DNA from: an uncultured bacterium
GTDB lineage: Bacteria; Patescibacteriota; Saccharimonadia; Saccharimonadales; Saccharimonadaceae
DNA length: 54,645 nt
Assembly: GCA_903952435.1 (NCBI GenBank)
Contig: CAJBFN010000011.1
Location: 1 to 54,645 of the forward strand
Reading direction: 5' to 3'
In this document: one piece after another, positions 21,173 through 54,395 of the stretch
Position numbering within the stretch: the stretch's first letter is position 1
Layout of the letters: each line of letters begins with the position of its first letter
The notes under the pieces: generated by a model
Database searches by the model: none
Seen by the model: only the letters and a program-made list of their open reading frames with translations
What the model was told of the DNA's origin: nothing
Position numbers and translations under genes: made by a program

Positions 21173-21490
21173 CTACATTTGTTTTGAGACTAAATCAAGC
21201 AAACTAGCCTTTGACGTCATCCCTATAGCTTGGTCAACCACGTTGCCATCTTTAAAAACTAAAAATGCTGGCAGGCCTGTAACACCAATTTCCTGCACAA
21301 GATCCATCTCTATAGAAGCGTCTAATTTTGCAAAATCGGCCTTATCTTTTAGCTCCTCGCTGACAGATTCTAAAATCGGCTCCATCGCACGGCAAGGACC
21401 ACACCAAGGAGCCCATATATCCAATAAAACAACTTTTTTTGATTGTAAAACTTCTGTTGTAAAGTTACTTTTTGTTATTATTTTCACCAT
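21173..21490 (-). CDS. trxA: Thioredoxin
   Basis: A 105-residue thioredoxin with the active site WAPWCGPC, preceded by VLLDI and followed by cis-proline TGLPAFLVFKDG. The start at 21490 is chosen because AAAGGGGGAC lies just before that ATG; the longer reading frame adds 19 hydrophobic residues upstream of this site. It is divergent from the class II ribonucleotide reductase, for which thioredoxin is a usual electron donor. It is therefore likely a functional partner. Confidence 0.95.
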   Translation of the reverse strand: MVKIITKSNFTTEVLQSKKVVLLDIWAPWCGPCRAMEPILESVSEELKDKADFAKLDASIEMDLVQEIGVTGLPAFLVFKDGNVVDQAIGMTSKASLLDLVSKQM

Positions 21491-21534
21491 GTCCCCCTTT
21501 GATATTTGTATGAATGTAATAATAACAATTATCG

Positions 21535-21564
21535 TTGACATACGCAATATATAGCGCTTATACT
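21535..21564 (+). promoter_or_regulatory. Sigma-70 promoter of the B12-dependent RNR gene
   Basis: TTGACA (21535-21540) and TATACT (21559-21564) are separated by 18 bases. The leader is only about 35 bases, and no cobalamin riboswitch fits in it. The ribosome-binding site is GAGAGGA at about 21593. Confidence 0.75.
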
Positions 21565-21605
21565 ACAACACAGACACAACATATGGGGATATGAGAGGAT
21601 TAAAA

Positions 21606-24191
21606 ATGAAAGAAACAACACAACAAACTACAATTTTAGATGAATCTAATAAAATTGAAGAAATACAAAAAATAGGTCGTGATATACCAAAGCCGCCAGA
21701 AAATCTACCAGAGCCAAAGCTAAGCGATAATGCATGGTATATTGGTCGCACTCGCTATGCCAGACGTGACATAAATGGACAACCAATTGAAAGCGCCAAA
21801 GAACTGTTTTGGCGAGTCGCTTATAATATTGCTACTGCCGAAAGAATATATAATAACAACGAAAAAAACCACCTATCAGTAGCCGTCAAATTTTACAATC
21901 TAATATCTAGTCGAAAATTTATGCCCGGCACTCCAATCTTACTAAATGCTGGGAAACCAAATCAGCAACTTTCATCGTGTTTTGTACTTCCAGTACCAGA
22001 TAGCCTTAATGGAATCATGCAAACAGCAACAGAAATGGCGATGATACATAAATCAGGTGGCGGCACAGGCTTTTCTTTTTCAAGATTACGCCCAAGAAAC
22101 GATCTTTTAGCATCCTCAGGCGGTTCTACGACCGGACCAATATCGTTTATGCAAATGTACAACGACATAACTGGCTCGATACGACAGGGCGGCGTCCGAC
22201 GCGGCGCCAATATGGGAATACTGCATTATAATCATCCAGACATATTACTGTTTGCCATTTACAAACTAGATGAATTCTCTCTTACTAACTTCAATATCTC
22301 GATTACGACCAGCAAAGAATTTTTTGATCAAATTAAGATTGACGAGAAGCTATTAGGTGAAGACTACGAGAGAAACTTTGACTTTGACGGGTTAGTCGAA
22401 AAAGCTCGAGAGGCCCTACAAACTCGAGATCAAGATTTAAAACAAGTTAGACTTGATTCTGTAGTCGCACAACTTAAAGACTGGTGCAAAGAAGAAACGC
22501 CAGGTTACGGCTATCCATTGATCAACCCTCGTAATGATTTTGAAGTTGGTCGACTAAACGCTAAAAAAGTATTTGACCTAATTACTCGATTTGCTTGGCA
22601 ATATGGCGATCCTGGAATGATATTTATGGATAAGGTTAACAACTCTAGAGCTAATCCGACACCACTACTCGGCCAAATTGAAGCCACCAACCCATGTGGC
22701 GAACAGCCGCTATTGCCTTATGACGCCTGTAACCTTGGAGCTGTAAATTTATCCTTGTTTGTAGATGTAAAAAATAATGACTTTGACTGGGACGCACTTC
22801 GTAAAACCGTTCACTTGTCAGTTCAATTTCTAGATAATGTGCTGGATATGAATGATTACCCAATCGAAAAAGTTCGAGAAATGGTAAAGCAAATCCGCCG
22901 TATTGGCCTTGGAATTATGGGCTTTGCAGATGCATTGTTAATTATGGATATCGGATATAACACCGACGAAGGTGTCGAAATGGCCGAGCGAGTAATGAAG
23001 TTTATACAACAAGAAGCCGACACAGCATCGTCAGAATTAGCCTCAAAGCGCGGCGTATTCCTTGCATATAAAGGATCTATCTACGACAAGCCAGGCGAGA
23101 TAACACCACGCAACGGCGCCAGGACAACAATTGCCCCAACTGGCACGACAGCCATGCTAGCCGACGCCTCAAGCGGCTGTGAACCATTATTTGCGCTGAC
23201 TTACTCAAAAAATACAATTGAAGGCAAAAGGATGTTTGAATCCAGCCCATATTTTATAGCCGCCCTAAAAAAGCGAGGTATATATTCCGAGGAGCTACTT
23301 GAACAGATTCAAGATAATAAAGGATCAATCCAAAGCATAGAATCAATTCCTGGAGATATAAGAAAAACATTCGTCGTTTCAAGCGACATTAGTCCAGAAT
23401 GGCATCTAAAAGTTCAAGCTGCTTTTCAAAAATACGTAGACAGCGCCATCTCTAAAACTATAAACTTTCCAAATAACGCAGGCGTAGAAGATATAAGATC
23501 TGCATATTTAATGGCTCACGAAATAGGCTGTCGAGGTATCACAATTTACCGTGACGGTAGCCGAGAAAAACAAGTTCTTGAAACCAAAAAAGAAGCATCG
23601 TATTACGACAAACTCGATGGATCAAAAACTGAAAAAAACGAAATAATCGAGCAAGTTCCTAACGAGTTAATAAGATTAAAAAATAGACCAGATGTACTCA
23701 GTGGCCGAACACACAAAGTCAACACCCCATTAGGAAAGGCCTTCATTTCAATAAATGAAGATGATAATGGTAATATATTTGAAATATTCATTAATGTTGG
23801 CCGAGCCGGATCAGATATAACTGCCGATGCCGAAGCAATCGGACGTTTAATCTCACTGGCCTTTAGAATACCTTCAAATTATACTTCCGACCAAATCGCC
23901 CAAAAAGTCATCGCTCAACTTCGTGGCATCGGTGGCTCTGGATCAACTGGATTTGGTGCTGATCGTGTCAGGTCACTAGCCGATGCCATAGCAAAAGTCA
24001 TCGAACACCACCAGGCAACAAAGACAACCTTGATCGTAAAAGAAGAAAGTCAACAAGTTGAAACCATATCACTTTGGGAGGCTCCAAAATCAAATACATT
24101 AACTGATATGTGTCCCGAATGTGGAACGGCTAGCCTAAGGTTTATCGAAGGTTGCCAAAAATGCGAATCATGTGGATTTAGTAAATGTTAA
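21606..24191 (+). CDS. nrdJ: Adenosylcobalamin-dependent (class II) ribonucleotide reductase
   Basis: An 861-residue enzyme that reduces ribonucleotides to deoxyribonucleotides with B12. The start is the ATG at 21606 with GAGAGGA upstream. Markers: HKSGGGTGFSFSRLRP, RRGANMGIL, the active-site NPCGEQPL (N-x-C-x-E, cysteine radical site), YDACNLGAVNLSLF, TIAPTGTTAMLADASSGCEPLFAL, a TSCPD-type domain late in the protein, and a C-terminal redox CxxC pair (MCPECG, CESCGFSKC). No radical-generating partner is needed in class II. Immediately downstream are a cobalamin-uptake-like pair, and trxA is divergent. Confidence 0.95.
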   Translation: MKETTQQTTILDESNKIEEIQKIGRDIPKPPENLPEPKLSDNAWYIGRTRYARRDINGQPIESAKELFWRVAYNIATAERIYNNNEKNHLSVAVKFYNLISSRKFMPGTPILLNAGKPNQQLSSCFVLPVPDSLNGIMQTATEMAMIHKSGGGTGFSFSRLRPRNDLLASSGGSTTGPISFMQMYNDITGSIRQGGVRRGANMGILHYNHPDILLFAIYKLDEFSLTNFNISITTSKEFFDQIKIDEKLLGEDYERNFDFDGLVEKAREALQTRDQDLKQVRLDSVVAQLKDWCKEETPGYGYPLINPRNDFEVGRLNAKKVFDLITRFAWQYGDPGMIFMDKVNNSRANPTPLLGQIEATNPCGEQPLLPYDACNLGAVNLSLFVDVKNNDFDWDALRKTVHLSVQFLDNVLDMNDYPIEKVREMVKQIRRIGLGIMGFADALLIMDIGYNTDEGVEMAERVMKFIQQEADTASSELASKRGVFLAYKGSIYDKPGEITPRNGARTTIAPTGTTAMLADASSGCEPLFALTYSKNTIEGKRMFESSPYFIAALKKRGIYSEELLEQIQDNKGSIQSIESIPGDIRKTFVVSSDISPEWHLKVQAAFQKYVDSAISKTINFPNNAGVEDIRSAYLMAHEIGCRGITIYRDGSREKQVLETKKEASYYDKLDGSKTEKNEIIEQVPNELIRLKNRPDVLSGRTHKVNTPLGKAFISINEDDNGNIFEIFINVGRAGSDITADAEAIGRLISLAFRIPSNYTSDQIAQKVIAQLRGIGGSGSTGFGADRVRSLADAIAKVIEHHQATKTTLIVKEESQQVETISLWEAPKSNTLTDMCPECGTASLRFIEGCQKCESCGFSKC

Positions 24192-24217
24192 TTAAAAAAT
24201 AATAAGGAGATAAAACA

Positions 24218-24607
24218 ATGAAAAAACAAATATTAACCTACGTTATAGTCGTGCTTGTAGCAATCGGAGTAATAGCTGGTGGTTTTTACGGATACCAGGC
24301 TTTAACTGCTAAAAAATCAGATTCAACAATAATCGCTAATAGTTGCGAAACATCTAATAACGGCCGAACAGTGACATACAAAGGAGAAGACGGAATAACC
24401 GCATTAGCTTTGTTAAATAAAAATTGCCAAACTGAATCTACCGGACAAGGCGAATCGTCTTTTATAACAAAAATCAACGGCGTTGAAGCTAATTCCAGTA
24501 ATGAATTTTGGTCATTCAAAGTAAATGGCGAGATGGCAATGGTTGGCGCCGGTAGTCACACAACCAATAGCAGCGAAACAATAACCTGGGAATTAAGCCC
24601 TTTCTAA
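24218..24607 (+). CDS. Membrane-anchored DUF4430 protein, possible cobalamin-binding
   Basis: A 129-residue protein with an N-terminal membrane anchor (residues about 6-27) and an exterior domain of about 85 residues. The domain has GEDGITALALLNKNC, SSFITKINGVEANSSNEFWSFKVNGE and SETITWELSPF, the DUF4430 pattern that is related to the C-terminal domain of transcobalamin/intrinsic factor. Two cysteines (in SCETS and NKNCQ) may form a disulfide. It follows nrdJ by 26 bases with an AAGGAG ribosome-binding site and precedes an ECF S-component-like gene by 10. It is inferred to capture B12 at the cell surface. Confidence 0.75.
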   Translation: MKKQILTYVIVVLVAIGVIAGGFYGYQALTAKKSDSTIIANSCETSNNGRTVTYKGEDGITALALLNKNCQTESTGQGESSFITKINGVEANSSNEFWSFKVNGEMAMVGAGSHTTNSSETITWELSPF

Positions 24608-24617
24608 AGGATAAAAA

Positions 24618-25184
24618 ATGAAAGATAACAAAACATTAATATTTAAAATCTTATTAGCCTCGACACTTGTAGCCATAGCAGTAACTTGGCGAATTATAAA
24701 TCACAATTATAGTTTTGCGCCAAACCTAGAGCTTGTAACCGTTGGCGCTGTTTTGGCGGCAATTGCGCTAGGCGCCAGTTGGGCTATTATTGTGCCGTTG
24801 GCGGCTATAATAATCTCAGACTTAATCATCGGCAATTCGTCAATATTTATATTTACTTGGGGCTCATTTGCCTTAATTGGCGCCGGATCAATTTTGCTGG
24901 CAAAATTGAATAAACAACCAAAAAAACAATTGCTTGCATCAGCTGGATTTGCAGTTGCCGGATCTTTTACATTCTTCATCATCACTAATCTTGGCGTTTG
25001 GTTGCAAGGATGGTATCCGGCGACAATAGCCGGCCTGACAGCCTGTTTTACTTTAGCAATTCCGTTTTATCGTACAATGTTAATCGGCAATTTAATAATC
25101 GTACCTGTTAGCGTATCAATCTATCAATTAGTTCGCGCTAAAATAGTTGCAAAAAACCTAGTAATCGATTCCTCGGTTAGCTAA
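24618..25184 (+). CDS. ECF transporter S-component-like membrane protein (DUF6580-like)
   Basis: A 188-residue protein with about five to six hydrophobic helices. The sequence NLELVTVGAVLAAIALG and WGSFALIGAGSILLAKLN resembles the vitamin-uptake S components grouped with ECF transporters. S components bind the vitamin and dock on a shared energizing module (EcfT and two ATPases), which is not in this window. Its position between the DUF4430 gene and the cobalamin adenosyltransferase supports B12 or a corrinoid as substrate, but that is contextual inference. It ends in a convergent 27-base overlap with the adenosyltransferase gene. Confidence 0.75.
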   Translation: MKDNKTLIFKILLASTLVAIAVTWRIINHNYSFAPNLELVTVGAVLAAIALGASWAIIVPLAAIIISDLIIGNSSIFIFTWGSFALIGAGSILLAKLNKQPKKQLLASAGFAVAGSFTFFIITNLGVWLQGWYPATIAGLTACFTLAIPFYRTMLIGNLIIVPVSVSIYQLVRAKIVAKNLVIDSSVS

Positions 25185-25724
25185 AATTTTGTCATCAAAG
25201 TGATGCTTTAATTGAGTCATGTCGGTAGCAATATCGACAAGATCAATTAATTCCATCGGAAAATCACGTCCAGTTAGACATAGATTAGTCATATTATTTT
25301 TATCGGTCATAAGCTTTTTAACATCATCGACACTAATCAAGCCTTCGTGAACGGCATTATTAATCTCGTCACAAATAACCAATTGGTACTCGCCACTGGT
25401 TGCCGCCCGGTAGGCTAAATCGTAAGTTTTACGCGCCTCGGCAATATGCTGTTCGGGTGGCAAGTTAGAGCTTAGCTCGCCAGCATTATAAAAACCAGCT
25501 CCTCCCTTATAAAATGTTATCTTGTCGCCGTAAACCGGCTTTATGGCATTAATAAAAGTGTGTTCACCTGAATCCCATAATTTTATAAATTGGACAAAAG
25601 CAACCTTCCATCCTGTACCTAATGCCCTAGCCATAAGGCCAACACCTGCGGTTGTCTTGCCCTTACCTGCACCTGTATATACCACCGTAACACTGTCTTT
25701 TTGTTTAAAATCTTCAAATACCAT
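25158..25724 (-). CDS. cobO: Cob(I)alamin adenosyltransferase (CobO/BtuR type)
   Basis: About 188 residues from the ATG at 25724; the reading frame extends 12 residues further upstream without better support. It has the P-loop YTGAGKGKTTAGVGL (about 16-30), ICDEINNAVHEGLI, the LTGRDFPMELIDLVD segment and the TDMTQLKHHF end, all typical of CobA/CobO/BtuR. It transfers adenosyl from ATP to reduced corrinoid, making the cofactor for class II RNR. It is convergent with the S-component gene. Confidence 0.93.
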   Translation of the reverse strand: MVFEDFKQKDSVTVVYTGAGKGKTTAGVGLMARALGTGWKVAFVQFIKLWDSGEHTFINAIKPVYGDKITFYKGGAGFYNAGELSSNLPPEQHIAEARKTYDLAYRAATSGEYQLVICDEINNAVHEGLISVDDVKKLMTDKNNMTNLCLTGRDFPMELIDLVDIATDMTQLKHHFDDKILANRGIDY

Positions 25725-26281: not shown

Positions 26282-28447
26282 CTATTTGGTCAGTTCTGTC
26301 CTAGAACCCAAGGTATCAATTTCATAATGAATATCAAATTCTTTTAATAATGTATCACCAGTGTATGTATCCGTTACATTATCACCGACCCTAGATATTT
26401 TTATTGATAATTGACTAGATAATGTTTTACCGATACCAGATATAGCACCAAACCCAACTAGCTGATGTTTGAATGCCGTGCCATCACCTGCATCTAGAAT
26501 TTCCACTGTAGTGAAGCTACCAGGTTCAGTGTCATTAATATTAGTCCATTTATATTCCATCCGCCATAAAACATTACCGGTATTAGTCGTAGTCGGCTGC
26601 CAGTGTATGTGTGGGTAGATGTCTGAGCCAACTTTCCACGCATGTGGCATTTGACCCAGAATAGCAATTGCTTGGATACCTGGCGCACCCGCCGTAAAGC
26701 CAATATTAGCCGTATCAAAAACCATCGCGTTTGCCGCGCCAGCTGGGTTAATGGCTGTCGCTGGAAACCGTAAATCTTCCCAAACTGTTGCATCACCATT
26801 AAATACTAATGTTCCATCGGTTTCAAATTGTGAGAAATTAACATCATCCGAACCGAATTTAGCACCAATTAGATTAACCGACAGGCCACTAGCTCCATTT
26901 AATAATGAAGTTCCGTTTAATTTAACAGATATAGTGTCGTCTGTTATATCAACACCGTTGCCGGCTGTATATGACCCTGCTGGACCCTGAGGTCCCATTG
27001 CGCCAACTGGACCCTGAACACCTTGAATTCCTTGGACTCCTTGTACGCCAGTTAGACCAGTCGCACCCTGTATACCCTGGATGCCTTGAACACCTTGAGC
27101 GCCAGCTGCTCCTACTGGACCCTGAATACCTTCCTCTCCCTCTTCGCCGCGCAAACCTTGGACACCTTGAATACCCTGAGCTCCTGTATCGCCCTTATCA
27201 CCTTTAGGGCCTTGAATTCCTTGGACACCTTGTGCTCCGGTCGCGCCAACTGGGCCTTGGACGCCCTGTTCTCCAGTATCACCTTTATCACCCTTTAGCC
27301 CCTGGATACCTTGGATACCTTGAGTACCCTGAATTCCCTGAATACCTTGGATACCCTGTTCACCTTGGGCACCAACTATGCCAGATAATCCTAATGACGT
27401 CATGGCATATGAAACATGTTCTGTGCCATTATGTGCGAAATGCGTTGATTCACCGCCAACTGTGTTTTTGGCATATATTTTAACCACCAATCTATCAGTT
27501 GATTCCATAGCATCTGATCCGGAATACGTATAACCGGTGATAACTTCGGCAATCGAGGAGCTAGTAATATCAGCACTGGCAGTATTAAATAATTCCGTTT
27601 CAACCCCAGCCAAATCACGCCTGTAAACTCGATAAACTATATTACCGCTACCGCCACTAACATATGTATAAGTATGAAACTGCCACAATCCAACTGGTAA
27701 CTGGCTAACACCTGGCACATTAGGCTCAGTTGCGTATGCGTCAACTAAATATTCCTGATTTGGATTCGCGATAATAGTTGATTCATCTTGTTCCATACCA
27801 CCACCAGGGACACGCAAAAAACTTTCATACCCCGTAACATCTGATTCTACATCTTGGAACCAATATAATTGTCCTGCACTCTGACCATTAACACCAGCCA
27901 CACCCTGAGCACCCTGAACACCTTGGGAACCCTGAGCACCTTGGACGCCCTGTGCGCCATCTGTGCCATCATCTCCGGCCAAACCAATCTCACCTTGAAT
28001 ACCACGCAAACCCTGAATACCCATCAAACCCCTCTCGCCCTGTAGACCAGTTAATCCAGTTTCACCCCTAGGGCCAACCGCACCAGTCAAGCCAATATCA
28101 CCCCGAGGACCAGTTGCGCCAATAGGACCTTGTGGGCCGACCAGATTTGCCTGGTTTTCACTAATATTAAATGCTATGTTGCCCGAATCCGAATTACTAG
28201 ATGATATAATTGTTGTGCCATCAGCCAAACTATTAATTGTTGAGGTATTTATGTCACTCAAATCAACTCGTCCAATACATTCATCATCTACTTCGACAAA
28301 AATACCACAATAAATATCACCAAAAACATGTGACAGGGCGTTATCAAAATCTGACCGAGAACCATTCCTCATGAACCAGATGCCAAAAACAATCAACAAC
28401 ACTACAACCGTGGTGGCAACTATAATTTTTTTGAATCTTGGTTTCAT
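26282..28447 (-). CDS. Collagen-like surface protein with phage-type C-terminal domain
   Basis: A 721-residue protein. A membrane anchor (residues 8-26) leads to a cysteine pair segment (IYCGIF, DECIG). Collagen-like Gly-X-Y repeats run at 104-188 (about 28 triplets) and 359-491 (about 44 triplets, rich in GIQ, GVQ, GDK). Between them is a globular domain of about 165 residues, and at the end (about 560-721) a domain with AWKVGSDIYPHIHWQPTTT and VLWRMEYKW, a pattern I associate with phage virion or tail proteins. The Gly-X-Y stretches imply trimeric rods on the cell surface. It is likely an adhesin or epibiont fibre; function is inferred. Confidence 0.88.
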   Translation of the reverse strand: MKPRFKKIIVATTVVVLLIVFGIWFMRNGSRSDFDNALSHVFGDIYCGIFVEVDDECIGRVDLSDINTSTINSLADGTTIISSSNSDSGNIAFNISENQANLVGPQGPIGATGPRGDIGLTGAVGPRGETGLTGLQGERGLMGIQGLRGIQGEIGLAGDDGTDGAQGVQGAQGSQGVQGAQGVAGVNGQSAGQLYWFQDVESDVTGYESFLRVPGGGMEQDESTIIANPNQEYLVDAYATEPNVPGVSQLPVGLWQFHTYTYVSGGSGNIVYRVYRRDLAGVETELFNTASADITSSSIAEVITGYTYSGSDAMESTDRLVVKIYAKNTVGGESTHFAHNGTEHVSYAMTSLGLSGIVGAQGEQGIQGIQGIQGTQGIQGIQGLKGDKGDTGEQGVQGPVGATGAQGVQGIQGPKGDKGDTGAQGIQGVQGLRGEEGEEGIQGPVGAAGAQGVQGIQGIQGATGLTGVQGVQGIQGVQGPVGAMGPQGPAGSYTAGNGVDITDDTISVKLNGTSLLNGASGLSVNLIGAKFGSDDVNFSQFETDGTLVFNGDATVWEDLRFPATAINPAGAANAMVFDTANIGFTAGAPGIQAIAILGQMPHAWKVGSDIYPHIHWQPTTTNTGNVLWRMEYKWTNINDTEPGSFTTVEILDAGDGTAFKHQLVGFGAISGIGKTLSSQLSIKISRVGDNVTDTYTGDTLLKEFDIHYEIDTLGSRTELTK

Positions 28448-33889: not shown

Positions 33890-35686
33890 TTAAGGTGTTT
33901 TGTAAACCGTTCGATTGCCGACTGTCCAGTCTAAAATATTGCTATAGCGATCAATTGGTGAAATCAGGATGTTATCATCACCAACGGATTTAACATTTTT
34001 ATTGCTGACATACTGCGCCGTTGATTGATATAAACCAATCGCTGGGACATCAGCTAGCCATTGTTTTACAAAGGTTAAATATTTAGCATTTCGCAGTGTC
34101 GGATCAAACCTGACTCTAGCTGATGATAATGAATCGTCGCTAATTATATTAGAGTAATTAGATAAATTAAAGCCCTGCGAAGTAGCCTGAGACGAATGCC
34201 AATAGGCATAAACATCTGGATCGGCGCCTATATTTAGCTGGTAAAGTAAAACATCATAATTTCGAGGCTGTAGTATGTTCTGAGAAAAGCCTTGATTTAT
34301 ATCACTAGGATCGACTACTTTCGTGTTAATTACAATCCCCAGCAATCGCCATTGTCCAGCTAGCACCTCTAATGCCCTTTCTAGTTCGTTATTTTTTACA
34401 GTAACGACGGATAATTCCAGCTGAACACCAGCTTTTTCTCGAACACCCTTATCATTCAAAGCCCAGCCGGCACCATCGAGCATTTTTTTAGCGACTTCGG
34501 AATCATATTTTGGAGCCTTTGACAAATCACCGAATAATTGGCTATTCGTAACAGGTAAATCAAGTTGTGGAGTTGTGATTGGAAGATTAGAACGAATAGC
34601 ATCTGTGTTAGTAGCTATCTGAAGAGTTTGACGCAAAGTTATATCCTGAAGAATCGCACTTTTAGTGTTTAAAATTGCATAGACACCGATACTAACTGGA
34701 TTAGATTCTATATTAAATTTTTTGTCATCAATATTGGCTATATCGGCTGGATACAAATCAGCAGCACCATTAACATCACCATTTAAAATTGCCCGACGAA
34801 TTTCATCAGTCGTATTATATGACTGCAACTGAAACCTATCAATTTTTGCAATGCCGCCATAATAAGATTCGTTTCGAGTCATATAAATATTTTTACGACC
34901 AGAGTTTTTATCGACTTCTTGAATAAAACTAAACTTAAACGGTCCACTACCTATTGGATTATTACTAAAATTATTCTCACGTAAGGCACCTGGCGCCACA
35001 CTACCTAATATATGTTTTGGTAAAATTGGAAAGTTTAGCAAATGCTCAAAGGCAACATATGGCGACGACAAATCAAATTCTACGGTGTAATCATCAATTA
35101 ATTTTACATTTACTCCTTCTAGACCCTCTATGTTAGACCTTGTACTGGAATTTTTTATAAGACCTACAGTAAAGACTACGTCATCAGCCGTTAATTTTTG
35201 GCCATCGTGCCAGTTGGCATTATTACGAATTTTTATGGTATAAACCGTATTTAAATCATTAGCTGTAACGCTAGTTGCCAAATCGTAATTGAGATGTCCG
35301 GTAATATCATAATTTACCAGTCTAGAAAACATAAGATAATTAGCCGATTGCTCGGCGCTTGTTGTAGAAAACAAAGGGTTAATGATATTAATTGGACCTT
35401 TTACAGCCTCGGCATAAACACCACTATTAGCGCCTGTCTGATCTTGATAACCCTGCCTAAACCACATTAATTGCAAACCGGTTGCCGCAATTAAAATACC
35501 CATTATTACAATCCAAGTTATAATATTATGCTGAACTTCTAAAACATTACTCCAGCGCTTGATAATAAATTTATGTGTATGTTTAAGCGTTACGCCCTGG
35601 GCTTGGCGCATCTGTTTAGTTAGTTTTTTCTTATTAAAATTTATTTTAGGCAACCAAGACTTTTTTTCTTTATCATCTTCGGCCAT
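33890..35686 (-). CDS. Membrane-anchored oligopeptide-binding protein (SBP_bac_5)
   Basis: A 598-residue substrate-binding protein of ABC importer family 5 (OppA/DppA). A basic cytoplasmic head of about 55 residues precedes one membrane helix (about 56-76, IITWIVIMGILIAATGLQL), with no cleavage or lipobox site, so it stays anchored. The binding domain has LMFSRLVNYDITGHLNYDLA, NNANWHDGQKLTADDVVFTV (family signature), FDLSSPYVAFEHLLNFPILPKH and ADPDVYAYWHSSQ. No permease or ATPase genes lie beside it. It is 10 bases downstream of secG in the same direction. Confidence 0.9.
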   Translation of the reverse strand: MAEDDKEKKSWLPKINFNKKKLTKQMRQAQGVTLKHTHKFIIKRWSNVLEVQHNIITWIVIMGILIAATGLQLMWFRQGYQDQTGANSGVYAEAVKGPINIINPLFSTTSAEQSANYLMFSRLVNYDITGHLNYDLATSVTANDLNTVYTIKIRNNANWHDGQKLTADDVVFTVGLIKNSSTRSNIEGLEGVNVKLIDDYTVEFDLSSPYVAFEHLLNFPILPKHILGSVAPGALRENNFSNNPIGSGPFKFSFIQEVDKNSGRKNIYMTRNESYYGGIAKIDRFQLQSYNTTDEIRRAILNGDVNGAADLYPADIANIDDKKFNIESNPVSIGVYAILNTKSAILQDITLRQTLQIATNTDAIRSNLPITTPQLDLPVTNSQLFGDLSKAPKYDSEVAKKMLDGAGWALNDKGVREKAGVQLELSVVTVKNNELERALEVLAGQWRLLGIVINTKVVDPSDINQGFSQNILQPRNYDVLLYQLNIGADPDVYAYWHSSQATSQGFNLSNYSNIISDDSLSSARVRFDPTLRNAKYLTFVKQWLADVPAIGLYQSTAQYVSNKNVKSVGDDNILISPIDRYSNILDWTVGNRTVYKTP

Positions 35687-48434: not shown

Positions 48435-51400
48435 TCACTTTCCTATATTAAACAACCAGCCCAAAGACGATTGTAATGAGTTAATAATTATGTCAAAAAC
48501 AGAAGATCTAGCTTGCTCGGTTAGGACAGACTGTTGTTCAGAGACGCCTTTGTTACCTAAAGCGTCTTTGGATGATGTTCTTATGCGGTAAACACTAGAT
48601 GGTCGTAAGTTAGTTAAGACAACAACATGTGAGGTAGTTAGGTTGGCGTCTTCTTGGGTTTTGCTGCCGTAGCTATCACCAGTTACGCCAAAGTCGTATT
48701 CAACTTGAGATGTGCTAGGTTCATCAGTTTGCCAAGAGACAACGATTTGACTTTTGGCAGCTGTGCCAAATTCAGTGTTAGAGACTTCAGTGGTGACGTT
48801 GGCTGTAGCTGGTGGACGAGTGTCGTAGGCGGTTTTAATGCGTTGAGTATCAGAGATGGCGCTGTTGCCGAATTGATCTACGCCAATAGTATTCATTAGA
48901 TAATATGTATCATCGAATAAGCCGTTGATTGTAATGGTGTGTTTGGTTTCAAGTTTAGTTTTAACAGTTTCTTGGATGGTGCCACCATCAGGCTTAAATT
49001 GAACGACTGATGTAGTTGGAACATTAGTGTCCCAGGTTACTTGGAAGGCAGCGGTGGCTTGATCGTTAAGTGGTTGAAATCTTACATTAGATATTTTTGG
49101 ATATTTTTGAGTTTCGAAGGTGTAGTCGTCGGAGGTAATCTGGTTACCATCAATGTCGGTAATGCGAACTGCAAAATGGTAGGTGCTAGAATCTTCCAGC
49201 CCTTCTAATCTAACTGTATGAACAGTAGTAGCGCCACCGGATATATTCTTTAGTTCACTTGAGTAGTTTGTAGACTTACCATATAGTAGGTCGGATATAG
49301 CTGGCTCGGATGTATACCAAGTTAGGATGGCTGTATATAGTCGAATATCTTGAATTGAGACACGCTCAACGCGAGGCGCTGGTCGTGTCCTGAACATACC
49401 ATTAGCACAAATCTTATTACCATCTTTGTCAGTTGACTTAACCCTATAATAATAAGTTGAGTCGGATTTTAATCCAGTCACTAGAACTTCATGGTCACTG
49501 ACATGATCATCTTGACCTTGTGAGACACCGTAGACTTCTTTACAAAGTGTAGTCTCGGGTATGACAGTCTCGCCAATCTCAACGAATGAGGACGCCTTAT
49601 GCTGATCAGATGTATCATCAGTAGAAGTCGTCCATTGGATATTAGCCGTCGAGACTTTAGCTGCGACCGCTGGGCCATTAGTAATGTCAGGGGCTCTAGT
49701 ATAGCGACCAGTTGGAGATATAGGTAATGCCATAGTAGGCCCGTTTGTATTATTTGCACTATCCCTAGATCGAACTTCATAATAATAGGTTGTGCCGCCG
49801 GCAACTCCAGCGTCAACAAATGAGGTGCCAGTACTGCTGCCGATTGGACTGGCTGGATAACCAAAGTTAATGCCATCAATTGATCGGTAGATATCATAAC
49901 CACTAACACCAATGCCTGAATTCTCAGCTGAGGGGGCTGTCCATTTTATAGTAACTGAATATTCTAAAGTATCGCGATTTGAGGTATCAAATAACTGGAC
50001 GCTTGTTGGTAGACCTGGAGCGCTAGTGTCGCAATAGAATTCGACCTTGGCCATTTTAGATTCATTACCATAAGCGATTATATCTTGGCTTCCGTCAGTG
50101 CCAATCGCCATAACATAAAATGTATTAGCATTTGGCATAACCCTTGTTGCAGCTGGAATGTTTGACAGGGTTACCTGTCCGCTTGTTGTATTATATGTGG
50201 CCGCAGGTATTTTGCCTAAAATAACATCACTTAGTTTTATGAATACCGAATTAGTATCGGTCACAGGACTATTAATTGAATAGCGATAACCTATAATATC
50301 ACCCTGATAGGCGCCTGCATCAGCTTTTGATGGAGGCAGCCAACTAAACGTAAATGAATTAGCCTGGGTTGGAACTATAGGATCGACAATCAAAGATAAT
50401 GGTGCGGACGGCGCATTACCAGTGTAGTAAAAATTAATATCTTTAATAATACTACTTACATTGCCAGCATTATCAATGGCGCGTATATATAAAACATTTG
50501 TACCCGGATGAACTTGATTACTATTGGATAATGTTAATGTAGTGCCGACAGTCTGAGACGAACCAGACCAATCATCATCCGCATCATTTATCTTATATTG
50601 GTATCCCGCTATACCCGATTGACCTTGACCTAATAAATCGGTGCTGGCTGCCCAGTTGAATGTAAAGTTGTTATTAGATGACCAACCAAATGGATCAACA
50701 GTAAGCGAAGAGACGGCCGTCGGAGGTGTTTTGTCGTATTTATATGTAAATAAAGTGACTGGATCGGAAATATTGCCAGCGTTATCGACTGTGGCCACTC
50801 TTAAATAATAGTCGCCTTCATTAGATATAGCGGTTGATGGTGTGAAGATTTGTAGGTCTAGAGTATTAAAGGTATTAGGCACTGAGTCAGTTCGAGATTG
50901 AAAGGTACCGGCGGTATATGCAGCGGTATCGTCTTGGCCAAAATAAACATAATATCCATTTATTCCCGATTGATCAACCGCTACGCTATTGATTATATCG
51001 GGATCATTAGCACCATAAAATTTGAAAATTGGATTGGAATAATTAAAGAATTTTTCCTGAGTAATATCAATAACAACTCGTAAGCCTATATTATTTTGAT
51101 CTGATAAAACATTATTATCTACATCGACATATTCACCTTGGCCATTGGTTTTATAAGTTGTTACTGTTAGATCAGTTGTACCGTTAAAAAGATTGACATT
51201 AGTTGGGCCCGTGGGAGCAATTATGTCGTGCATATACATAAGCGAAAAGTCATTAATCTTAGGAGTAACCAACGCATCAGAAGTAGCTAGAACTGCACGT
51301 ATTTCAATATATCTTGATATAGGCAAGCTAGTTAAGTCGCCCGCGCCAGTAGTAGTTCCAGCACCAGTTTGATTGAATGATGTCCAATCAGACCAAGTTT

Positions 51401-54395
51401 TATTGTCGGTGCCAGTCCTAACACTAAAACTAATAGAAGTGCTAGCCGGTAAGGCATCAGAATTCCAATTAATTGAATACCCCCTTGTTTTTTTGCCAGC
51501 GCCAATATCTAAAGTAACGCCCGACAAAACACCTAGTTTTTCATATACTACACTATCTGCAGAAAATATATTGGTTTGAACCGGAGTGAGACGTTGGGTG
51601 ATTGAGCCATCGCCTAGGCGTCCAGATGTATTAAGTCCCCAGCCCCAAGCGGTATCTTCATCTGGGTCAGCGGTGATACTATTTTTAATAGCTAAAGAAT
51701 GAGAGCTCCCAGCGGATATGGTAGTTATACCGGTTAACCAGCCGGTGCCGGCGGTGTCTTTGACTTGAACTGGGCTAAGGCGCTGAGTGGTTGATCCGTC
51801 GCCTAATTGGCCATTTGAGTTCCATCCCCAGGCCCAGACGGTGCCATTATTTTTGAGAGCTATAGAGTAGGCACCCCCTGCTGCTGCAGATATGTCAGTA
51901 ATACCAGCAAGAGCACTGATTTGGACTGGCTTAGTTGTATTCATAGGCAAACCTGAACCATTACCTACTGTTTCAGTAAGCCCCCAGGCCCAGACAGTAC
52001 CATCGTTTTTAAGTGCTAGAGAATGAGAGCTCCCTGCATCTACAGAAGTGATATCAGCTAGATAACCCGTGCCGGCTGTGTCTTTAACTTTAACTGGAAT
52101 TGACACAGTAGCAGTTAACCCATTACCTAATTGACCATTTGAGTTAAGACCCCAGGCCCAAACACCATCATCAGCAACTCGTATCGAAACATTGTTTTGA
52201 TCTGATAAGACATTATTGCTTGCGTCAACATAAATTCCTGCAGTATTTGTTTTATATTTTTTAATAGCGAGAGAATGACTTCCTCCGGCCGCAATTGCCG
52301 TTACGCCGCCCAAATAGCCAATGCTGCTAGCATCTTTGACTCGAACTGGGGTTGAGCGCTGAGATGTTGAGCCATCACCTAGTCGGCTGTTCGTATTAAG
52401 CCCCCAAGCCCAGACGGTGCCGTCGTTTTTGAGAGCCAAAGAATGAGAACTGCCGGCGGCTATGGCAGTGATGCCAGCTAGATAGCCGGTGCCATCATTA
52501 GTATCTTTGACTTGAACTGGGATTGAGCTAGAAGTAGTTGAGCCATTGCCTAATTGACCGTTCGTATTAAGGCCCCAGGACCAGACGGTGCCATCATTTT
52601 TGAGAGCCATAGAGTAAGAGATGCCGGCAGCTATGGCAGTAATGCCAGTTAAATAACCGGTGCCATCATTAGTATCTTTGACTTGAACTGGGATTGAGCT
52701 AGAAGTAGTTGAGCTATTGCCTAATTGACCGTTCGTATTAAGGCCCCAGGACCAGACGGTGCCATCGTTTTTCACAGCCAAGGAATGAGAGCTGCCGGCA
52801 ACTATAGCTTTTACATCGCTTAGATCAGTAAGTACATCTGATGAGTATACTTCATTAACTACTTGAAACGGCGTTAAGCGCTGAGCAACCGAATTGTCAC
52901 CCAACCGACCGTTCGTATTAACACCCCAGGCCCAAATAGTGCCGTCGTTTTTGAGAGCTAGAGAATAACCGTTCCCATTATCTACGGCCGTTATACCAGT
53001 TAAGAATCCGGTGCCGGCGGTGTCTTTGACTTGAACTGGGGTTAGGCTCTCAGTTTGTGAATTATCGCCTAGTTGACCATTGGCATTATAGCCCCAGGCC
53101 CAGACGGTGCCGTCGTTTTTGAGAGCCAAAGAATGACTATTTTGAGCACCACCATCTACGGAAATAACGTCAGCCAGATAACTAGTGCCGGCGGTGTCTT
53201 TGACTTGAACTGGAGTAAGGCTCTGACTGTATGAGTCGTCGCCTAATTGACCGTTAAAATTTGATCCCCAGGCCCAGACGGTGCCGTCATTTTTTACAGC
53301 CATTGAGTGAGAGAACCCGGCAGCTATAGATGTTATACCAGTTAAAAATCCGGTGCCGGCGGTGTCTTTGACTTGAATTGGGGTTGTGCTAATTGAAACA
53401 AATGAATTAACGCCTAGTTGGCCCTCTCCGTTAACACCCCAGGCCCAGACGGTGCCGTCATTTTTTACAGCCATTGAGTGAGAGAACCCGGCAGCTATAG
53501 ATGTTATACCAGTTAAAAATCCGGTGCCGGCGGTGTCTTTGACCTGAATTGGGGTAAAACTTGTATTAATTGAACCATTACCTAACTCACCATTATCACC
53601 AAGTCCCCAGGACCAGACAGTACCGTCATTTTTGAGAGCTATGGAATGATAGGCACCGACAGCTACGGTTTTTATACCAGTTAAAAATCCAGTGCCGGCG
53701 GTGTCTTTGACCTGAATTGGAGTAAGGCTCTGGGTTGATGAATTATCGCCTAATTGAAAACTACCGTTATTGCCCCAGGCCCAGACGGTGCCGTCATTTT
53801 TTACAGACATTGAGTGATAATAACCGGCAGCTATAGCTATTATATCAGTCAAATAACCGGTGCCAGCGGTATCTTTGACTTGAACTGGAGCAAGTCTCTG
53901 AGTTGTTGAATTGTCACCTAATTGACCGTTTGTATTAAGCCCCCAGGCCCAAACAGTGCCGTCGTTTTTGAGAGCTAAGGAATGATTATCACCAGCAACT
54001 ATAGACGTAATACCAGTTAAATTATTCGCAGCAGTAAGCCTAGCTAATGCCAAATCAGACTCTGCGCCACTGCTTGCACATGTAATATCTGAATAATCAT
54101 CTCCTGAAATCGCCAAACCACTAAAACTATTCATCTTGCAAGCGCCAGACTGACCATCAAGCACATTTTTATTCATGTAAAAATCAGCATTAGATGACCA
54201 TGTTAATCTAGATTGAGCCTTTACTGTCATACTTGGCAAAAGCATACTAGCGAACATTGAAACTATAATAAAAAGCGTAGCTATAAAATAAAAACGGTGG
54301 CCTTTTGAAGACTTAAATCGCAAACAAGTAGCACGAACAGATTTAATTAATCTATTTATGAACCCTTTGAACACTCCCCGCATCTTTTGAAGCAT
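48435..54395 (-). CDS. Giant RCC1-repeat/Fn3 surface protein
   Basis: A 1986-residue protein. A basic head and a membrane or signal helix (about 36-54) lead to 14 RCC1 blades (about residues 120-960; each has a G-x-HS-x-ALKNDGTVWAWG core and about 57 residues), enough for two seven-bladed propellers. Blades 11 and 14 have insertions. A beta domain (about 975-1080) and then about seven Fn3/Ig-like modules follow, and the C terminus ends with an amphipathic IINSLQSSLGWLF stretch. RCC1 propellers and Fn3 modules fit an extracellular adhesin. Blades 4/5 and 8/9 are nearly identical in DNA. TACAAT lies 6 bases before the ATG, so the mRNA is probably leaderless. Confidence 0.85.
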   Translation of the reverse strand: MLQKMRGVFKGFINRLIKSVRATCLRFKSSKGHRFYFIATLFIIVSMFASMLLPSMTVKAQSRLTWSSNADFYMNKNVLDGQSGACKMNSFSGLAISGDDYSDITCASSGAESDLALARLTAANNLTGITSIVAGDNHSLALKNDGTVWAWGLNTNGQLGDNSTTQRLAPVQVKDTAGTGYLTDIIAIAAGYYHSMSVKNDGTVWAWGNNGSFQLGDNSSTQSLTPIQVKDTAGTGFLTGIKTVAVGAYHSIALKNDGTVWSWGLGDNGELGNGSINTSFTPIQVKDTAGTGFLTGITSIAAGFSHSMAVKNDGTVWAWGVNGEGQLGVNSFVSISTTPIQVKDTAGTGFLTGITSIAAGFSHSMAVKNDGTVWAWGSNFNGQLGDDSYSQSLTPVQVKDTAGTSYLADVISVDGGAQNSHSLALKNDGTVWAWGYNANGQLGDNSQTESLTPVQVKDTAGTGFLTGITAVDNGNGYSLALKNDGTIWAWGVNTNGRLGDNSVAQRLTPFQVVNEVYSSDVLTDLSDVKAIVAGSSHSLAVKNDGTVWSWGLNTNGQLGNSSTTSSSIPVQVKDTNDGTGYLTGITAIAAGISYSMALKNDGTVWSWGLNTNGQLGNGSTTSSSIPVQVKDTNDGTGYLAGITAIAAGSSHSLALKNDGTVWAWGLNTNSRLGDGSTSQRSTPVRVKDASSIGYLGGVTAIAAGGSHSLAIKKYKTNTAGIYVDASNNVLSDQNNVSIRVADDGVWAWGLNSNGQLGNGLTATVSIPVKVKDTAGTGYLADITSVDAGSSHSLALKNDGTVWAWGLTETVGNGSGLPMNTTKPVQISALAGITDISAAAGGAYSIALKNNGTVWAWGWNSNGQLGDGSTTQRLSPVQVKDTAGTGWLTGITTISAGSSHSLAIKNSITADPDEDTAWGWGLNTSGRLGDGSITQRLTPVQTNIFSADSVVYEKLGVLSGVTLDIGAGKKTRGYSINWNSDALPASTSISFSVRTGTDNKTWSDWTSFNQTGAGTTTGAGDLTSLPISRYIEIRAVLATSDALVTPKINDFSLMYMHDIIAPTGPTNVNLFNGTTDLTVTTYKTNGQGEYVDVDNNVLSDQNNIGLRVVIDITQEKFFNYSNPIFKFYGANDPDIINSVAVDQSGINGYYVYFGQDDTAAYTAGTFQSRTDSVPNTFNTLDLQIFTPSTAISNEGDYYLRVATVDNAGNISDPVTLFTYKYDKTPPTAVSSLTVDPFGWSSNNNFTFNWAASTDLLGQGQSGIAGYQYKINDADDDWSGSSQTVGTTLTLSNSNQVHPGTNVLYIRAIDNAGNVSSIIKDINFYYTGNAPSAPLSLIVDPIVPTQANSFTFSWLPPSKADAGAYQGDIIGYRYSINSPVTDTNSVFIKLSDVILGKIPAATYNTTSGQVTLSNIPAATRVMPNANTFYVMAIGTDGSQDIIAYGNESKMAKVEFYCDTSAPGLPTSVQLFDTSNRDTLEYSVTIKWTAPSAENSGIGVSGYDIYRSIDGINFGYPASPIGSSTGTSFVDAGVAGGTTYYYEVRSRDSANNTNGPTMALPISPTGRYTRAPDITNGPAVAAKVSTANIQWTTSTDDTSDQHKASSFVEIGETVIPETTLCKEVYGVSQGQDDHVSDHEVLVTGLKSDSTYYYRVKSTDKDGNKICANGMFRTRPAPRVERVSIQDIRLYTAILTWYTSEPAISDLLYGKSTNYSSELKNISGGATTVHTVRLEGLEDSSTYHFAVRITDIDGNQITSDDYTFETQKYPKISNVRFQPLNDQATAAFQVTWDTNVPTTSVVQFKPDGGTIQETVKTKLETKHTITINGLFDDTYYLMNTIGVDQFGNSAISDTQRIKTAYDTRPPATANVTTEVSNTEFGTAAKSQIVVSWQTDEPSTSQVEYDFGVTGDSYGSKTQEDANLTTSHVVVLTNLRPSSVYRIRTSSKDALGNKGVSEQQSVLTEQARSSVFDIIINSLQSSLGWLFNIGK
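51075..51160. repeat. Internal repeat: Fn3-region copy of the blade-11 insert
   Basis: This stretch encodes YKTNGQGEYVDVDNNVLSDQ and a few more residues. A related stretch at 52187-52260 encodes YKTNTAGIYVDASNNVLSDQ inside RCC1 blade 11. The shared segment is out of place in a propeller blade, which suggests internal copying. Confidence 0.65.
53301..53560. repeat. Near-identical RCC1 blade repeats
   Basis: The bases around 53301-53390 and 53461-53550 are almost identical, encoding blades 4 and 5 (both contain ITSIAAGFSHSMAVKNDG). Similar near-identity is seen for blades 8 and 9 around 52480-52790. Such identity implies recent duplication or gene conversion. Confidence 0.8.

Follow-up and report, generated by a model that had tools for sequence, protein, structure and literature searches.

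A predicted cobalamin acquisition-and-use cassette pairing DUF4430 and DUF6580 proteins with a class II ribonucleotide reductase in a Saccharimonadia genome

Introduction

BtuM of Thiobacillus denitrificans (structure 6FFV) is a solitary protein of the S-component fold that supports B12 uptake in Escherichia coli, the btuR gene next door providing a metabolic trap (PMC6072759). CbrT of Lactobacillus delbrueckii belongs to ECF-CbrT, a cobalamin transporter with a deposited structure (6FNP), and uptake by CbrT needs the ECF module (PMC5997447). Burroughs et al. (2007) proposed that B12 is scavenged by bacterial transcobalamin-like surface proteins and noted operons with CbiO/CbiQ; the Gram-positive SLBB proteins of this kind carry a transcobalamin C-terminal-type domain, are secreted or anchored, and are predicted scavengers encoded in membrane-transport operons (PMC1796856). 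In the Bacteroides BtuB-BtuG/BtuH loci, capture by a surface lipoprotein feeds a B12 transporter, under riboswitch control. The B12 importers of many B12-dependent bacteria are unidentified, and the Patescibacteria are mostly uncultured.

The locus described here, from the genome of a tiny, host-dependent member of the Saccharimonadia, can be compared with each of these systems. Like BtuM, its membrane protein DUF6580 has a (predicted) S-component fold, occurs in an organism without detectable EcfT, is co-localised with a btuR-type gene and would act by uptake followed by adenosylation; unlike BtuM, it often has a DUF4430 partner. It would resemble CbrT in its predicted substrate, cobalamin, and its profile matches a 6FNP chain that is probably CbrT, whereas no ECF module was found in the genome. 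The DUF4430 protein is of the same type as the SLBB surface proteins, but the operons of the latter contain CbiO/CbiQ while here DUF6580 and nrdJ are present and CbiO/CbiQ are not. The BtuB-BtuG/BtuH loci differ in using other protein families and in serving outer-membrane uptake, while DUF6580 lies beside TonB receptors in other Bacteroidota loci.

Results

Organization of the locus

The window is the whole stretch of DNA that was analysed, 54,645 nucleotides long, and corresponds to contig C11 of a 686-kb genome (G000) that is 98% complete. The features of the locus are the following.

21173-21484, minus strand: thioredoxin gene (trx), probable NrdJ reductant (PF00085, 96 bits; TIGR01068 above cut-off; CGPC motif)
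21535-21606, plus strand: nrdJ leader, a promoter-like site followed by an untranslated stretch of about 35 nt, without riboswitch
21591 (or 21606)-24191, plus strand: nrdJ, class II (adenosylcobalamin-dependent) ribonucleotide reductase (TIGR02504, 637 bits against a cut-off of 400)
24218-24607, plus strand: DUF4430 protein, predicted external cobalamin binder (PF14478, 66 bits against a cut-off of 23.8)
24618-25184, plus strand: DUF6580 protein, predicted ECF-free cobalamin carrier (PF20221, 115 bits against a cut-off of 27)
25158-25724, minus strand: cobO, CobO/BtuR corrinoid adenosyltransferase (PF02572, 167 bits against a cut-off of 25.7; PDB 4hut/1g5r)

The results of our profile searches showed a strong family match for each of the five genes, in agreement with the identities and positions given by the first-pass annotation. 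The very short spacing that it reported was also confirmed, with 26 bp between nrdJ and DUF4430, 10 bp between DUF4430 and DUF6580, and a slight overlap of the 3' ends of DUF6580 and cobO. Only nrdJ, DUF4430 and DUF6580 are co-directional; trx is divergent upstream of nrdJ and cobO is convergent to DUF6580. With trx and cobO encoded opposite to the three other genes, a single operon of five genes is ruled out and the cassette, although compact, is made of three transcription units.

The NrdJ protein keeps the catalytic cysteine motifs SSCFV, NPCGE and CNLG, which together with an equivalog profile score above cut-off identify a class II ribonucleotide reductase (RNR), and its nearest PDB chains are the B12-dependent RNRs 1xje and 1xjk (E about 1e-103). 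CobO was assigned to the CobO/BtuR family by its PF02572 score and by its P-loop (GxGKGKT, present as GAGKGKT), while its score of 143 bits with TIGR00708 is under the cut-off of 168 of that profile. A promoter-like TTGACA-18-TATACT at positions 21535-21564 matches 11 of 12 consensus positions, a consensus match only, from which the nrdJ leader would be about 35 nt long. No cobalamin-class riboswitch was found in the window even at E<=5, which excludes a hidden one up to that value and agrees with the earlier statement that the nrdJ leader holds none.

Three other genes of the window were noted. One codes for an OppA-like solute-binding protein (33890-35686; SBP_bac_5, 200 bits), no importer-type ABC ATPase being recognised in the genome; the others code for candidate surface structures, a protein of 721 aa with collagen repeats and an N-terminal anchor (26282-28447) and a 1986-aa protein with RCC1-looking repeats (48435-54395).

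The DUF4430 protein

The AF2 model of the DUF4430 protein consists of one N-terminal helix (membrane anchor) and a domain with a pLDDT mostly above 90. This model matched the transcobalamin beta domain (Foldseek: 5no0 and 5np4, rmsd 2.0 Å) and the DUF4430 profile matched transcobalamin-1 (4kki, E 9e-6), so that both the profile and the beta-grasp fold of the transcobalamin beta domain place the protein in the transcobalamin-like SLBB clade. Crystals of the separately expressed transcobalamin beta domain with CNCbl have been reported (PMC5599065). The DUF4430 protein is predicted to be an anchored, outside-facing cobalamin binder. The first-pass annotation had presented capture by such an exterior protein, with hand-over to an S component, as a new step; its surface-scavenging part had already been proposed in 2007 (PMC1796856), and what is new is the pairing of DUF4430 with a predicted ECF-free S-component partner, DUF6580, without CbiO/CbiQ.

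Several Patescibacteria encode, next to DUF4430-DUF6580, proteins of 650-790 aa (L239:2510-4468, L240:3367-5595, L241:2597-4963 and L244:2788-4740) with a DUF4430 domain, weak matches to alpha/alpha toroid families (in one case also to the eukaryotic Cobalamin_bind) and an apparent C-terminal membrane anchor, which we read as two-domain transcobalamin-like proteins.

Fold and sequence relations of DUF6580

The AF2 model of DUF6580, built from a 61-row alignment, had a pLDDT of 94. Its nine best PDB matches were all ECF S components (Foldseek, TM 0.46-0.65), with weak E-values (0.1-0.55), and neither 6fnp nor 6ffv was among the top 50. We are confident that the six-helix model represents an S-component fold. 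The sole PDB match of the DUF6580 profile up to E 10 was chain 6fnp_A (E 8e-5), a local match of profile positions 5-95 of 178 to a chain of 182 residues labelled only "Membrane protein"; judging from this length, the chain is most likely CbrT itself.

The same search up to E 10 gave no match to BtuM (6FFV), and DUF6580 is not BtuM by sequence. The residues conserved in the alignment are Asn36, Asp68, Asn124, Trp128, Tyr133, His29 (53/61) and Cys143 (49/61), the last being the sole frequent cysteine column, whereas BtuM has an invariant axial Cys80. Neither the sequence relation to 6FFV nor an invariant axial cysteine, the marks of the BtuM family, was thus found. No mention of DUF6580 was found in the papers searched, most subscription papers and preprints lying outside that search, and a literature search on Saccharibacteria, cobalamin and ribonucleotide reductase gave nothing.

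Search for an ECF motor

With the EcfT/CbiQ profile (PF02361), which scored over its cut-off in 9 of 14 controls, G000 gave no match, and not one of the 147 genomes of the class exceeded that cut-off. No Ecf-type ATPase was above the EcfA cut-offs in G000 either. The ABC ATPases of this genome are of the exporter, FtsE, LolD/MacB-like, ABC-2, TagH-like, ABC-F and UvrA types; they adjoin their own permeases or are soluble, and their scores are far under the EcfA cut-offs. As neither EcfT nor paired EcfA ATPases were detected, transport by DUF6580 would be ECF-free and, by analogy with BtuM, the protein is probably an S component that functions on its own.

The alternative that survives best is that DUF6580 is a normal S component and that the genome supplies its motor from a diverged EcfT and a shared ATPase. 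Its fold is that of the ECF S components and CbrT alone gave no B12 growth in E. coli (PMC5997447), but the results with PF02361 and the affiliations and scores of the ATPases make this reading unlikely. A BtuC-type importer was also considered and rejected, since FecCD matches were weak and limited to a few genomes of the class, with none in G000.

DUF6580 loci in other phyla

The 80 highest-ranking DUF6580 loci in a GTDB contig scan belong to Patescibacteria, Omnitrophota, Bacteroidota, Ignavibacteria, Actinomycetes and other groups. Riboswitches were searched for in 79 of them (703 kb), and the cobalamin class was found in 41 of these 79 loci, which were chosen by similarity and are not phylogenetically independent. 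Altogether there were 43 such riboswitches, of which 31 are no more than 1 kb from DUF6580. In several Patescibacteria (L174, L177, L183, L184 and L227) DUF4430/DUF6580 is directly preceded by an AdoCbl-II element. Outside the Patescibacteria two arrangements are frequent: a riboswitch followed by a TonB receptor gene and DUF6580, or DUF6580 followed by a riboswitch and a TonB receptor gene. In the second of these it is the neighbour that the riboswitch controls. The 18 riboswitches (of 43) that are located 3' of DUF6580 lead into the gene after them, in most cases that of a TonB receptor, and thus provide evidence from neighbourhood rather than of direct control of DUF6580. The 124 immediate neighbours of DUF6580 include 27 TonB plug, 12 DUF4430, and five PduO-type and two CobO-type adenosyltransferase genes.

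DUF6580 therefore has the neighbourhood expected of a cobalamin transporter, the window itself being without riboswitch. Cobalamin as the vitamin of the S component, on which the first-pass annotation relied, is favoured by these riboswitch loci, by the TonB, adenosyltransferase and metH neighbours, and by the profile match to 6fnp_A (ECF-CbrT). In an Ignavibacteria MAG (L175:4246-7938), a riboswitch, a 363-aa gene, a TonB-receptor-sized gene, DUF6580 and metH follow one another in that order.

Cobalamin riboswitches also control precursor transporters. The substrate of DUF6580 could accordingly be a precursor of the corrinoid or a compound of its lower ligand (cobinamide, alpha-ribazole or benzimidazole); a transporter that serves lower-ligand salvage is known in CblT (PMC6461909). 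The transcobalamin-like, TonB receptor, adenosyltransferase and class II RNR partners favour a corrin-containing substrate, however, and the matched chain is from ECF-CbrT, whose S component binds both cobalamin and cobinamide; we consider carriage of a precursor instead of complete cobalamin slightly less probable again than dependence on an ECF motor. A membrane cobalamin receptor or sensor that is not a carrier would fit with the failure to find a motor, and there are receptors and sensing domains that share the S-component fold (PMC11109136). This reading is improbable, as DUF6580 carries no fused kinase or output domain in the loci read and repeatedly adjoins outer-membrane TonB receptors, the place of an inner-membrane transporter.

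DUF6580 proteins with 37-48% identity to that of the window occur in the Actinobacteria Antribacter, Cellulosimicrobium, Myceligenerans and Luteimicrobium (L193:4534-5558, L160, L164 and L168), and that of L193 adjoins a lipoprotein-like DUF4430. Saccharibacteria live on Actinobacteria, so an exchange of DUF6580 between the two groups is possible.

Co-occurrence with DUF4430 and nrdJ

In the 147 genomes of the class, DUF6580 was found in 13, DUF4430 in 13 and both in 12; among 287 Patescibacteria genomes the numbers were 82, 81 and 76, respectively (Fisher p about 1e-55, uncorrected for relatedness). The two genes are at most 500 nt apart on the same strand in 56 of the 76 genomes, with DUF4430 first in 54. 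The co-occurrence with nrdJ on which the first-pass annotation had made its reading depend was observed: a class II RNR is encoded in every one of the 13 DUF6580 genomes of the class, compared with 48 of the 134 others, and nrdJ is upstream on the same strand within 7 kb in about 35 Patescibacteria DUF6580 genomes. Genes for an nrdR-like protein, nrdJ, cobO, DUF4430, DUF6580 and sometimes trx are in a row, with small variations, in L242, L245, L248 and L247, and trx adjoins nrdJ as in the window in G141, G128, G140, G085 and L155-L157. The pair adjoins a different, RTPR-like class II enzyme in G051, G076 and G137, which links it to the cofactor and not to one enzyme lineage.

The arrangement is not due to chance, as it recurs in relatives. 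An unrelated pair merely inserted between nrdJ and cobO would suit its patchy distribution within the genus and its lexA/nadD-like neighbours in one family, but is strongly disfavoured, because the pair adjoins class II RNRs of two non-orthologous types, cobO or pduO genes and, in other phyla, cobalamin riboswitches.

The converse association is looser. DUF6580 is missing from 48 of the 61 class II RNR genomes of the class, and three congeners (G128, G140 and G085) have trx-nrdJ-cobO at the same place without the pair (cobO being on another contig in G085), which indicates that the pair is not required for use of a class II RNR. The nrdJ tree groups L157, which has the pair, with G140, which does not; this rules out a single gain within the genus and implies at least two gains or losses. 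In family f6 of the class (G088, G106 and G113) the pair is not near nrdJ but is flanked by a lexA-like and a nadD-like gene. The latter neighbour suggested involvement in NAD metabolism, which was rejected, wider neighbourhoods giving no support. The 48 class II RNR genomes without DUF6580, like the rest of the class, have no EcfT above cut-off, and BtuC-like matches in the class are few and weak.

Some further arrangements were observed. One Patescibacteria genome (G211) has four separate NrdJ-like genes within 10 kb around cobO-DUF4430-DUF6580 (L247:1508-11250), and NrdJ matches are inside reading frames of 1400-2187 aa in G357 and G285. A CRP/FNR-type-looking regulator adjoins the RTPR-like RNR or its pair in L135:7532-8179, L141:3492-4151, L142:8860-9510 and L151:5033-5680 (profile match tested for the L135 gene only), which suggests oxygen- or redox-dependent use.

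Discussion

Taking together the gene identities, the folds, the conserved neighbourhoods, the riboswitch association and the lack of detectable EcfT/EcfA, we read the locus as a cobalamin acquisition-and-use cassette, with a probability of about 0.75, in which DUF4430 captures, DUF6580 carries without an ECF motor, CobO adenosylates and NrdJ uses the vitamin. Cobalamin binding and transport by DUF4430 and DUF6580, the hand-over between them and the energetics are what we infer from these observations. The anchored DUF4430 protein, with its transcobalamin beta-type domain outside, would concentrate corrinoid at the cell surface, and the six-helix DUF6580 would carry it across the membrane, probably by toppling or facilitated diffusion as proposed for BtuM. 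CobO would convert the corrinoid to adenosylcobalamin, which NrdJ would bind, and adenosylation and binding would trap the vitamin and pull net influx. NrdJ, re-reduced by thioredoxin, would then make deoxyribonucleotides.

The frequent placement of the pair in nrdJ operons of Patescibacteria is new, as is DUF6580 as a candidate B12 transporter family on riboswitch evidence. We consider it reasonably likely that DUF6580 represents unrecognised, phylum-spanning, ECF-free B12 transporters, fed by DUF4430 and supplying a class II RNR in the Patescibacteria, and working in Bacteroidota, Omnitrophota and other groups at the inner membrane, in partnership with BtuB-type TonB receptors. If true, this would assign a function to a membrane family that is present in many phyla but unnamed, and the very few S components free of an ECF motor would gain one more candidate family. 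It would also indicate how part of the Patescibacteria probably acquire B12, and their deoxynucleotide supply would then depend on scavenging of the vitamin.
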